A DNA stretch of 28,040 nt, taken from positions 1-28,040 of the IMG/VR virus record IMGVR_UViG_3300034068_000800; one strand, 5' to 3'. Source of the DNA: a virus. Positions 2,445-17,352 of this stretch are shown one piece after another. Both the position numbers and the translations under genes were made by a program. The notes under the pieces are model-generated. The model did no database searches and was not told the DNA's origin. It saw only the letters and a list, made by a program, of their open reading frames with translations. Position 1 is the stretch's first letter; each line of letters opens with the position of its first letter.

Positions 2445-2539
2445 GAGTTTGTTCGTGGGCAATCAGCCTGCCGAACTCACAAGGATACCAGGGGGAGTTG
2501 ACTGATCATACTCGCGCCGGGAGTTTGACCACTCCCGGC
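2445..2539 (+). promoter_or_regulatory. Two stems with alternative partners in the leader of the HNH gene
   Basis: GAGTTTG (2445-2451) pairs with CGAACTC (2472-2478) with one G-U pair and encloses a short inner GGGC/GCCT stem. GCCGGGAGT (2516-2524) pairs perfectly with ACTCCCGGC (2531-2539). Between them GAGTT (2495-2499) could take AACTC (2474-2478) away from the first stem, and GGGAGT (2493-2498) could compete for ACTCCC of the second. Such mutually exclusive pairings are typical of attenuators or riboregulators; function here is inferred only. Confidence 0.4.
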
Positions 2540-2571
2540 ATCAAATCAAACGCATCACGGAGGTTACAGCA

Positions 2572-3147
2572 ATGCTAGTGGCACTTGAGATAAAAAAAGG
2601 GAGCGGTAGCGGACGAATTGGAGTTTACTCGTGTCCGCACTGTAAAACAGTTTTTGAAAGAATTTCTTGCGTTGTAAATCGAAACAACCGGACAGGAAAA
2701 AAGCAGTCTTGCGGTTGCATGAATGGAAAAGCCTCAAAGCATGGAGAATACCAGAGTCCTATTTATTGGGCTTATCGGTCTATGAAATCTCGGTGCAGCA
2801 ACAAAAATAATAAGTCATATCATCGCTACGGAGGGAGAGGAATACAAGTTTGTGCTGAGTGGAGTACATACGAAGCGTTTGCGGCGTGGTCGAAAAGCAA
2901 CGGCCATGCAGTTGGCCTAACAATCGACCGAATCGACAACAATGGGGATTACAAGCCCAGCAATTGCCGATGGGTAACACAAAAAGAAAACTCGCAAAAC
3001 ACTTCCACAGTAAAACTCTGTGGAAGTGACGTACACGTCATACGCAGCCTGTATTTCGGTGGTTGGCCTCAACCTGAGTTGGCTAAAGTCTTTCAGGTAG
3101 ATTCGTCTACTGTTTCTCGGGTCGTGTGTTTTAAATACTGGTCATAA
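2572..3147 (+). CDS. HNH-type (homing-like) endonuclease with zinc-binding N-terminus and C-terminal HTH
   Basis: The 191-residue product resembles free-standing phage HNH endonucleases. Probable zinc ligands CPHC (21-24) and CGC (47-49) are followed by a His-Gly and YxxWxxMKxRC segment (57-75), YGGRGIQVCAEW (86-97), the DRIDNNGDY core (119-127) and NCRW with a late Asn (131-143), the usual layout of the degenerate HNH fold. Residues about 164-186 (WPQPELAKVFQVDSSTVSRV) look like a helix-turn-helix for DNA recognition. Start ATG 2572 has GGAGG 8 nt upstream. The gene is AT-richer than its neighbours, which fits a mobile insertion. Its stop TAA is the first part of the ribosome binding site of the CsrA-like gene. 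Confidence 0.75.
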   Translation: MLVALEIKKGSGSGRIGVYSCPHCKTVFERISCVVNRNNRTGKKQSCGCMNGKASKHGEYQSPIYWAYRSMKSRCSNKNNKSYHRYGGRGIQVCAEWSTYEAFAAWSKSNGHAVGLTIDRIDNNGDYKPSNCRWVTQKENSQNTSTVKLCGSDVHVIRSLYFGGWPQPELAKVFQVDSSTVSRVVCFKYWS

Positions 3148-3154
3148 GGAGGTG
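3145..3154 (+). promoter_or_regulatory. Perfect Shine-Dalgarno TAAGGAGGTG that selects an ATT start for the CsrA-like gene
   Basis: The ten bases match the full anti-Shine-Dalgarno complement. From the last G of AGGAGG (3152) there are 6 nt to ATT 3159 but 12 nt to GTG 3165. The motif also carries a GGA triplet (3148-3150), and another GGA is at 3175-3177; CsrA proteins bind GGA motifs, so autoregulation is plausible. Confidence 0.6.
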
Positions 3155-3158
3155 TGCC

Positions 3159-3353
3159 ATTTTAGTGCTATCACGGAAGGTCAATGAAGTTCTCGTCATC
3201 AATTACGGTGGCATTCAATTCAGGGTCTGCGTCACTGAGATCAGGGGCGACAAGGTCAAGATTGGTGTTGAGGCTCCACTTGAAGTCAGAGTGGATCGGT
3301 TGGAAGTGTGGGAAGCGAAACAACGGAATAATGGAGTTGTGACCAGTGAATGA
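3159..3353 (+). CDS. csrA: CsrA/RsmA-like RNA-binding translational regulator, probable ATT start
   Basis: CsrA homodimers bind GGA motifs near ribosome binding sites to repress or activate translation and stability of mRNAs. Starting at ATT 3159 the 64-residue protein begins with the canonical (M)LVLSRKVNE strand and continues LVINYGGIQFRVCVTEIRGD and KIGVEAPLEVRVDRLEVW, matching the family through the RNA-binding Arg (about residue 47) and the short C-terminal helix. The nearest standard start, GTG 3165, would delete the first two residues of strand 1 and sits 12 nt from the ribosome binding site. The stop overlaps the next GTG start. A phage-borne CsrA may rewire host or phage mRNA translation; its targets are unknown. 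Confidence 0.85.
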   Translation: MLVLSRKVNEVLVINYGGIQFRVCVTEIRGDKVKIGVEAPLEVRVDRLEVWEAKQRNNGVVTSE

Positions 3354-3915
3354 TATTTGCACCGATATTGAGTCTGCTGAAATAATAGATATTGTGTGGT
3401 CAGAAATGACAATAAAAAAAACGTATAGAGGGACTTGCTATCCTTTAGAAGTGAGTCAATCCGGCGGAATCTATTGGATTTACTGGCCTTCACAAAAGCT
3501 GTTAAAGGTCGGCAAAACAAACTATAAGATATCATCTCGTGTGCTTCAGCACGTTTCAGCACACGGCAACCCAGGGGTCGCATTCTACATGCTGATCGAA
3601 GATAAACGAAGGCAGCACCTTGCCGAACTATCACTTAAAAAGGCGATTTCCAGTAATATTGTTCGAGGCACTGAGTGGGCAAAAGCAAAGACCTTAGATG
3701 CGGCAGTTAAAATGCTGTCAGGAATCAAAGCCAAAGTGCCAAAAGTAAATGACTTAACCGATTACGATAAAGTGGTTTATCAGGCAACATATGAATTGCC
3801 TGTCGTACAACTTTCGAATCGGATAGATGAGCTTACAAAATATAGCCAAAACCAATCAATCCAAATCGAAATACTCGAGCGCAAACTAAATGCTTACCGC
3901 ATGATTTATCGCTAA
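3346..3915 (+). CDS. GIY-YIG-type nuclease-like protein (T5orf172-like)
   Basis: The 189-residue protein starts at GTG 3346, overlapping the CsrA-like stop, with GGAG 9 nt upstream. Residues 41-58 read GIY, then WIYW in place of YIG, then KVGKT; R65 lies on the following helix, and E94 in LAELSLKKAI is a good candidate for the catalytic Glu. This is the order of the GIY-YIG/T5orf172 fold. Residues about 150-185 form a predicted coiled coil (QLSNRIDELTKYSQNQ). The gene is visibly AT-richer than thyX downstream, consistent with lateral transfer. It may be a homing-type nuclease or a DNA-processing enzyme; the YIG part is altered, so activity is uncertain. Confidence 0.6.
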   Translation: MNDICTDIESAEIIDIVWSEMTIKKTYRGTCYPLEVSQSGGIYWIYWPSQKLLKVGKTNYKISSRVLQHVSAHGNPGVAFYMLIEDKRRQHLAELSLKKAISSNIVRGTEWAKAKTLDAAVKMLSGIKAKVPKVNDLTDYDKVVYQATYELPVVQLSNRIDELTKYSQNQSIQIEILERKLNAYRMIYR

Positions 3916-15888: not shown

Positions 15889-16073
15889 TCAGCAAGATCA
15901 TCATCCGGTTGCTAACACCGATCATTGTCGAGGTGATCCGCGAGCTGCTCTCCAAGCTGGCCAACGGTGAGCTGGTGAGCATCGACGAATCTAGTGTCAA
16001 ACTGGCACTTAATCAGCGTGAAGAGTCGATTCAGTCTCAGCTCAAATCTGTTCAATGGGAGGTCGGCCTGTGA
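15885..16073 (+). CDS. Small protein with hydrophobic N-terminal helix (62 aa)
   Basis: ATGA overlap at 15885. Residues 1-23 (MISKIIIRLLTPIIVEVIRE) are strongly hydrophobic or amphipathic and could lie in or along the membrane. The rest is polar and helical (QREESIQSQLKSVQWE). The stop overlaps the next GTG (GTGA), and its last codons hold that gene's ribosome binding site GGGAGG. No family recognised; it fits a spanin-like or holin-partner role only by position. Confidence 0.5.
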   Translation: MISKIIIRLLTPIIVEVIRELLSKLANGELVSIDESSVKLALNQREESIQSQLKSVQWEVGL

Positions 16074-16564
16074 TCGGACTTCTGATCGCAGTTCTACTGG
16101 CTCAACAGCCTGTTCCCTCGACTCTGGTTCCGCCAGCAGTCGAGGAACGGGTGGTGTTTAGCCATGCTGGATTTACGTACTTTGTGGGCAAGTCCAGCGG
16201 AAGTGTCATCGCCATTGAGCAAGGTGGTGTTCGACCTGTTCCGCCACCAGTACCAGACGAGGATGAAAAGCCTCAACCAGTCAGTGGCATCAAGTGGTTT
16301 TCGGTTGTTGTGGATGAATCCAAACCGGAGCAGCAAGCATGGCGTACCGATCCAGAGATCCGCAAATTGCTAGAATTGCGTGGAATACAGTATCGCTCGT
16401 ACACCGCCGAGGAGACGGACATCGACCGACTAGGGTTTCAGCAAACCGTTGGTCAGATAGGTTTACCGACCGTCATCTTGCAGGATCAGGCAGGAAAGAT
16501 CGTCAAGTCTGTCAGTCCCAGAACCAAGGATGACATCATAAAGCTGGTGGAGGTGATCAAGTGA
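16070..16564 (+). CDS. Exported thioredoxin-fold-like protein without CxxC (164 aa)
   Basis: GTG 16070 overlaps the previous stop and has GGGAGG 7 nt upstream; the ATG at 16055 contains that site and is rejected. The first 16 residues (MIGLLIAVLLAQQPVP) look like a short signal or anchor. A Pro-rich linker (about 65-82) leads to a domain with KWFSVVVDES, EIRKLLELRGIQYRSY, a GLPTVILQDQAGKIV strand-turn-strand (the cis-Pro site of thioredoxin folds) and a final helix. The CxxC is missing, so redox activity is unlikely. It is probably outside the cytoplasm; role unknown. Confidence 0.6.
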   Translation: MIGLLIAVLLAQQPVPSTLVPPAVEERVVFSHAGFTYFVGKSSGSVIAIEQGGVRPVPPPVPDEDEKPQPVSGIKWFSVVVDESKPEQQAWRTDPEIRKLLELRGIQYRSYTAEETDIDRLGFQQTVGQIGLPTVILQDQAGKIVKSVSPRTKDDIIKLVEVIK

Positions 16565-17352
16565 GCAATCTGCTTGGCTGGGTAACACCTGACGGCGAGC
16601 TGAGGTATTTGGGAAGCCATGAATCCACGCTCATGCTGGCCACTGGCAAGCAACTCCCAGATATTCCCGAAAGCGAATGGCAAGAATTCGACCTAAGAGA
16701 TGATTCAAAGTATCCGGTCAAAGTAAAAGACCAGAACGGCAAAGGGGCTTGCAATGGCCATGCAGCGGCAAGCAGTCTGGAAATTGCTCGGTACGTTTCT
16801 GGTGCTGCTTATGTCGCTCTTAGTCCTTGGCTCGTCTATGCTGATTTGTGTAACGGTTGGGACGTTGGCTCGAATATTGCGGAAGCTCTGGTCTACCTTG
16901 AAAACAAAGGGACTTGCTCTGAGCCACTGGTTCCTTATGCGACAATTAACCCTTCAAGAATTCCGCAGTCGGCCAGAACTGACGCCAAGCGGTTCAAAGT
17001 TGAGATCGGATACAGACTCAACACCTTTAAAGACTTATGTATTGCATCACAGCTCAGAATGCCGTTTAACTTTTCTGTGCCGGTCAACGCCAACTTTAAC
17101 GTCCTCGACAAAGATGGAGTCCCAGGCAACCGAGCCGGAATGCACAATCACGCTGTAACAGGCGGAGTGGGAATGAAGCGATTGCCCAGCGGAAAATGGG
17201 CCATCTTGATGCAGAACTCATGGGGAACCCAGTGGGGCTGGAATGGCTACTGCTGGATTACCGAGAGAAACGTAGAAGGCAGAGGGTGGGATGCCTACTG
17301 CGTCAGTGCCACTGTGGCCGATCCAAATAACTTACCTCCAGTGCTTGCATAA
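16561..17352 (+). CDS. Papain-like (C1-type) cysteine protease
   Basis: The catalytic triad of the papain fold can be placed. C64 lies in KDQNGKGACNGHAAASSLE, with Q58 as the oxyanion Gln. H197 is in AGMHNHAVTGG. N219 is in MQNSWGTQWGWNGYCW, the highly typical Asn-Ser-Trp-Gly motif. Length (263 residues) fits a mature C1 domain with a short N-terminal extension. No signal peptide is visible. GTG 16561 overlaps the upstream stop. Its place at the end of the small-membrane-protein cassette, with no peptidoglycan hydrolase in sight, makes a lysis or host-degrading role possible; processing of virion proteins is the alternative. Confidence 0.82.
   Translation: MSNLLGWVTPDGELRYLGSHESTLMLATGKQLPDIPESEWQEFDLRDDSKYPVKVKDQNGKGACNGHAAASSLEIARYVSGAAYVALSPWLVYADLCNGWDVGSNIAEALVYLENKGTCSEPLVPYATINPSRIPQSARTDAKRFKVEIGYRLNTFKDLCIASQLRMPFNFSVPVNANFNVLDKDGVPGNRAGMHNHAVTGGVGMKRLPSGKWAILMQNSWGTQWGWNGYCWITERNVEGRGWDAYCVSATVADPNNLPPVLA

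Follow-up and report, generated by a model that had tools for sequence, protein, structure and literature searches.

An AUU start codon in a phage csrA gene, probably derived from the insertion of a homing-type HNH endonuclease gene

Introduction

AUU and AUC start codons are very rare, and few genes are known to use them. IF3 discriminates against noncanonical starts and represses them in E. coli and Streptomyces (PMC5472188), and the conserved noncanonical starts described in S. aureus are all accompanied by extended Shine-Dalgarno sequences (SDs; PMC13009471). The free-standing homing endonucleases of T4-like phages are encoded by promoterless genes that lie between or inside phage genes, overlap their neighbours and sometimes split a gene (PMC2988022). 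Both ingredients of the case reported here, AUU/AUC starts and free-standing endonucleases beside phage genes, are already known (PMC2988022), while in the open-licence literature no report was found of AUU/AUC starts in csrA, or of an endonuclease seizing the start codon of a gene and leaving a non-AUG start behind. Here, we describe a phage csrA in which the two occur together. The window, the whole stretch of DNA analysed, is a virus record of 28,040 nt, and a search of viral contigs returned twenty-four relatives.

Results

The csrA start site

The features of the csrA start site in the window are as follows.

3145..3154, + strand: new csrA SD, TAAGGAGGTG, overlapping the stop codon TAA of the HNH gene; the only copy in the whole window (0.02 expected)
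3159..3161, + strand: ATT, putative csrA start codon; siblings have ATG, and the GTG alternative is gone in L008 and L009
3159..3353, + strand: csrA, 64 aa; Pfam PF02599, 52.8 bits; under purifying selection
3165..3167, + strand: GTG, codon 3, rejected as an alternative start; GTA in L008 and L009

A first-pass annotation had proposed that csrA starts at this ATT, behind a strong SD and with a canonical CsrA N-terminus, and these points were borne out: AGGAGG ends at 3152, 6 nt before ATT, and the product read from ATT begins ILVLSRKVNE and matches the Pfam CsrA profile. Between the upstream TAA (3132) and ATT the window contains no in-frame ATG, GTG or TTG, and no canonical start is usable near the SD; every other likely gene of the window has an ATG, GTG or TTG from which it can be read. 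The codon at the aligned position in relatives, proposed in the annotation as a check on the start, is ATG in eight endonuclease-free sibling loci whose CsrA is nearly identical or related, ATT in L002, L003, L004 and L009, and ATC in L008, where an in-frame ATG 7 codons upstream has no SD preceding it. Because the same ATT recurs in four contigs from other metagenomes, with ATC in a fifth contig, a sequencing error at this codon, which the annotation had named as a way for its reading to fail, is excluded. Comparison thus supports ATT well as the csrA start.

The AUU site is less folded than shuffled sequences (z +1.65), and an autoregulatory hairpin at the SD was rejected on this ground. The GGA motifs claimed for the site came down to one, within the SD, and strict autoregulation of csrA would be speculation. 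Two other possibilities were dismissed as well: a phage tRNA for AUU/AUC initiation, as neither the window nor any of seven related loci contains a tRNA, and an HNH-CsrA frameshift fusion, as TAA 3132 closes the csrA frame and no slippery site was seen from there to the HNH stop.

The CsrA protein and selection

The window protein exceeds the cut-off of the CsrA/RsmA profile (27 bits) with a match beginning at residue 2 and also belongs to PHROG 9500 (CsrA-like), but misses the cut-off of the NCBIfam csrA equivalog (TIGR00202, 51.3 versus 70.1 bits); by these scores it is classed as a divergent family member, not an equivalog. By inspection, the residues corresponding to E. coli L4 and R44 are again Leu and Arg. 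Between AUY lineages csrA is under strong purifying selection (window/L009, dN 0.012 and dS 0.41; window/L008, dN 0.020 and dS 0.52; L008/L009, dN 0.032 and dS 0.32; L012/L014, dN 0.020 and dS 0.16), although these ratios could partly record a history on ATG backgrounds, through recombination.

An HNH endonuclease gene at the csrA start

Upstream of ATT lies an insertion, described by the following features.

2516..2539, + strand: leader hairpin with a 9-bp stem, GCCGGGAGT/ACTCCCGGC; fold z -2.07; immediately 5' of csrA in endonuclease-free siblings
2559..2563, + strand: original csrA SD (GGAGG), now that of the HNH gene; the same or a near-identical leader precedes the ATG-started csrA of L005, L006 and L010
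2572..2580, + strand: ATGCTAGTG, csrA-derived codons 1-3, now the HNH start; the BLAST match to intact phages stops at 2580
2572..3147, + strand: HNH endonuclease with C-terminal helix-turn-helix, 191 aa; PHROG 374, 3377 and 517
2581..3164, + strand: segment inserted relative to endonuclease-free siblings; BLAST breakpoints 2580/3165 against L005 and L006
3148..3165, + strand: read-on of the HNH frame beyond its stop, GGVPF followed by TAG; similar to GGVSF-stop, the C-terminal tail of the L405 endonuclease

The HNH protein matches PHROG 374 (E 5e-42), PHROG 3377 (HNH endonuclease, E 9e-39) and the helix-turn-helix family PHROG 517 (E 2e-7), and so unites the HNH motif and the DNA-binding module of a free-standing HNH homing endonuclease. 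Close relatives differ in whether they have its gene at this fixed site: it is carried by the window, L002-L004, L008 and L009 and lacking in L005-L007 and L010-L014. The boundary is clean against the intact L005 and L006, which align with the window through 2580 and resume at 3165. The 584-nt insert consists of the HNH gene less its first three codons, the new SD and ATTTTA, and the GTG of csrA is duplicated, with one copy at each edge. The HNH gene itself starts with ATGCTAGTG in the window, ATGCTTGTG in L008 and ATGTTAGTG in L009, a csrA-like ATG-Leu-Val being found in each endonuclease-bearing sibling, and these versions resemble csrA alleles found among relatives. At the other end, the TAG that closes the post-stop HNH frame sits in csrA codons 2-3. 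These data indicate a homing-type gene placed exactly at the csrA start, with its activity and mobility predicted; the odd start codon and the new SD of csrA would then be explained by the position of ATT where such a mobile insertion ends, a cause that the annotation had missed.

As a separate observation, a hairpin before csrA (2516-2539 in the window, and in the leaders of L013 and L169) is retained in siblings despite differing stems (CCGGGAG, GCCGGGGG and CCTCCCGCC types), which hints at a structured leader. Downstream, an ORF at 3346-3915, between csrA and thyX, overlaps the csrA stop and looks GIY-YIG-like by eye (GGIYWIYW...KVGKT); this identity found no support in Pfam, PHROG or PDB, and siblings L005-L010, L012 and L014 show no DNA matching the ORF. 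In the phage structural gene region, a papain-like cysteine protease (16561-17352) and a thioredoxin-like protein (16055-16564) were likewise recognized by eye.

Recurrence in other phages

Viral contigs were scanned with the pattern GGAGG-spacer-ATH-LV, and the search for AUH csrA covered GGAGG or AAGGA SDs and Leu-Val N-termini. Beyond the window family, it matched seven L186-type contigs (ATC), L187 (ATT; on the contig of L405) and L193 (ATC; an in-frame ATG 9 codons upstream makes it ambiguous), and a second scan added L501 (ATT). The pattern AAGGAGGTGTGCCAT, found in 91 viral stretches, was set aside as near chance for a 15-mer given the collection size. Among related phages, the csrA of L412-L418 and of L407 (at 2427) reads ATG GGC AT(A/G) CTN, possibly a two-codon N-terminal extension, with Ile in L407 where Met usually stands.

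L405 and L501 carry a different endonuclease, composed of HNH and an AP2-like C-terminal domain (below the Pfam cut-off, E 2e-6 and 5e-4), and its TAG stop falls within csrA codons 2-3. The homology of L405 to its relatives ends 695 nt 5' of csrA, at a hairpin that in other phages stands about 30 nt before csrA, so an insertion at the 5' end of csrA is suggested here too.

Judged by HNH sequence motifs, which diverged genes could escape, 5 of 13 AUY/AUA loci have an HNH-type ORF whose end falls between -60 and +20 nt of csrA, as against 0 of 100 ATG loci among the matches listed (p 9e-6). As loci are non-independent, lineages were counted too, with the same proximity in 3 of 6 AUY/AUA lineages versus 0/100 ATG among the matches listed (p 1e-4). 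An SD of the GGAGGTG type precedes csrA in 4/5 AUY lineages, compared with 8/90 ATG loci among the matches listed (p 7e-4).

AUY starts also occur at csrA genes that lack the endonuclease. In L012, L014 and L173, which have no in-frame ATG, GTG or TTG upstream, the original leader is joined to GCCATTTTAGTGCTATCA, with the position of the sibling ATG and its SD spacing kept; the CsrA body of L173 is quite different. These three look like recombinants or excision products. The seven L186-type AUC genes have no adjoining HNH gene now; L186 has 19 identical bases, GGAGGTGTGCCATCTTAGT, in common with L008, yet their CsrA proteins differ, and the group may be of similar origin. Therefore, the AUY codon works or persists on its own. 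Endonuclease insertion is not the sole route to such a start either, because the L186 type lacks an HNH neighbour and none was detected at the three prokaryotic loci described below.

Rarity in prokaryotes and the host

When applied to about 85,000 prokaryote genomes, the same pattern matched 84 stretches, three of which are AUH-start csrA genes: L204 (Adhaeretor mobilis, ATA), L216 (a Clostridiaceae MAG, ATA) and L282 (ATC). Across 298 genomes of the Adhaeretor class, AUH csrA was found in that species' own gene only; the second match of that scan, in G213, was not csrA. The A. mobilis genome (G003) has thirteen csrA-family matches, one of them the ATA-start gene. In L216 (1500-1560), the ATA csrA comes directly after another gene, and the TAA stop of that gene overlaps the SD (AAGGAGGGATAAGT ATA), a stop-in-SD layout like that of the window. 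Of six Planctomycetia genomes with a readable infC, five (L485, L487, L489, L490 and L491) lack ATG, GTG and TTG close to the beginning of this gene; in them AUC follows a purine-rich SD and is likely to be the start. The multiplicity of CsrA and the noncanonical infC had suggested Planctomycetia as a possible host, but the portal protein has distant matches only (59 genomes; best 30% identity, E 1e-25).

Discussion

Based on these comparisons, we propose that translation of csrA begins with fMet at AUU 3159, aided by the long SD, and that this start arose through the HNH insertion, an explanation we hold to be quite probable. A homing-type HNH gene would have settled at the csrA start and taken over the SD, the ATG and codons 2-3 of csrA, so as to be translated from csrA's old signal. 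Ribosomes finishing the HNH gene would halt at the TAA within the new SD, and initiation of csrA would follow at AUU, 11 nt past this TAA, through restart coupled to HNH termination or through de novo binding, while the AUY codon would spread together with the endonuclease. From the known biology of AUU/AUC starts, weak and IF3-sensitive initiation is plausible (PMC5472188, PMC13009471), and a long SD in an unfolded region fits the expectation for an SD that makes up for a poor codon. More tentatively, and doubtful at present, several endonuclease families may target the start of phage csrA, bringing along a portable cassette for re-initiation (an SD plus AUY), with homing making CsrA weakly initiated and IF3-responsive.

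The alternative that deserves most weight, possible but well short of the preferred reading, is that selection favoured the AUY start for regulation, with weak initiation that depends on IF3 holding CsrA low or linking it to ribosome state, and with the endonuclease secondary. AUU has changed to AUC in L008 and yet no endonuclease-bearing copy has reverted to AUG, AUY endures endonuclease-free in L012, L014, L173 and the L186 group, and unrelated AUH csrA genes (L204, L216, L282) and the Planctomycetia infC point the same way; the strong endonuclease association and the at least 90 distinct csrA genes in viral contigs that start with ATG speak against it.

The remaining readings are far less probable. 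A relic csrA, no longer translated after the insertion, would fit the loss of its ATG and the separation from its original leader, but the frame is full-length, dN/dS is low across AUY lineages and the SD is strong and correctly spaced, which makes this improbable. A CsrA two residues shorter, started at GTG 3165, has a canonical codon present in the window to recommend it, and we regard it as very improbable: GTG is 12 nt from AGGAGG, as the annotation had measured, and two first-strand residues would be lost. The annotation's rejection of GTG is upheld by relatives, since codon 3 is GTT in the L186 group and GTA in L008 and L009, where the next canonical start is codon 45 (GTG) and a start at codon 3 is consequently unusable. 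Equally hard to credit is an intron, in which splicing ATGCTAGTG to CTATCACGG (3168) would restore an ATG start. In its favour, with one GTG at each edge of the insert the join would give precisely MLVLSRK; against it, an ORF fills almost all of the 584-nt insert, neither a group I/II intron core nor any Rfam intron match even at E 10 was found, and AUU/AUC csrA genes occur without any insert.

The recurrence of AUU/AUC starts in one phage gene family beside endonuclease insertions offers a mechanism for the origin of such starts, namely that a mobile gene seizes the initiation region of its target, and the target survives by a non-AUG restart. In practice, automatic annotation that allows only ATG, GTG and TTG will truncate or miss genes of this kind.

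Among described systems, infC, encoding IF3 (AUU/AUC), and Streptomyces sigR (GTC) resemble the window csrA as regulatory genes with noncanonical starts (PMC5472188), but involve no mobile element according to that paper, whereas the csrA start lies at an endonuclease insertion. The S. aureus genes cvfC1 (AUU) and ccpN (AUA) likewise combine a conserved non-AUG start with an extended SD (PMC13009471), and the enrichment of GGAGGTG-type SDs at AUY csrA is in line with this; they are chromosomal and supported by ribosome profiling (PMC13009471), while the csrA start is supported by comparative evidence. The mobE, mobA and seg genes of T4-like phages are, like the HNH gene of the window, free-standing and lodged at phage genes (PMC2988022). 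In contrast to them, the window HNH gene appears to take the SD and ATG of its target, which would restart at AUU or AUC.
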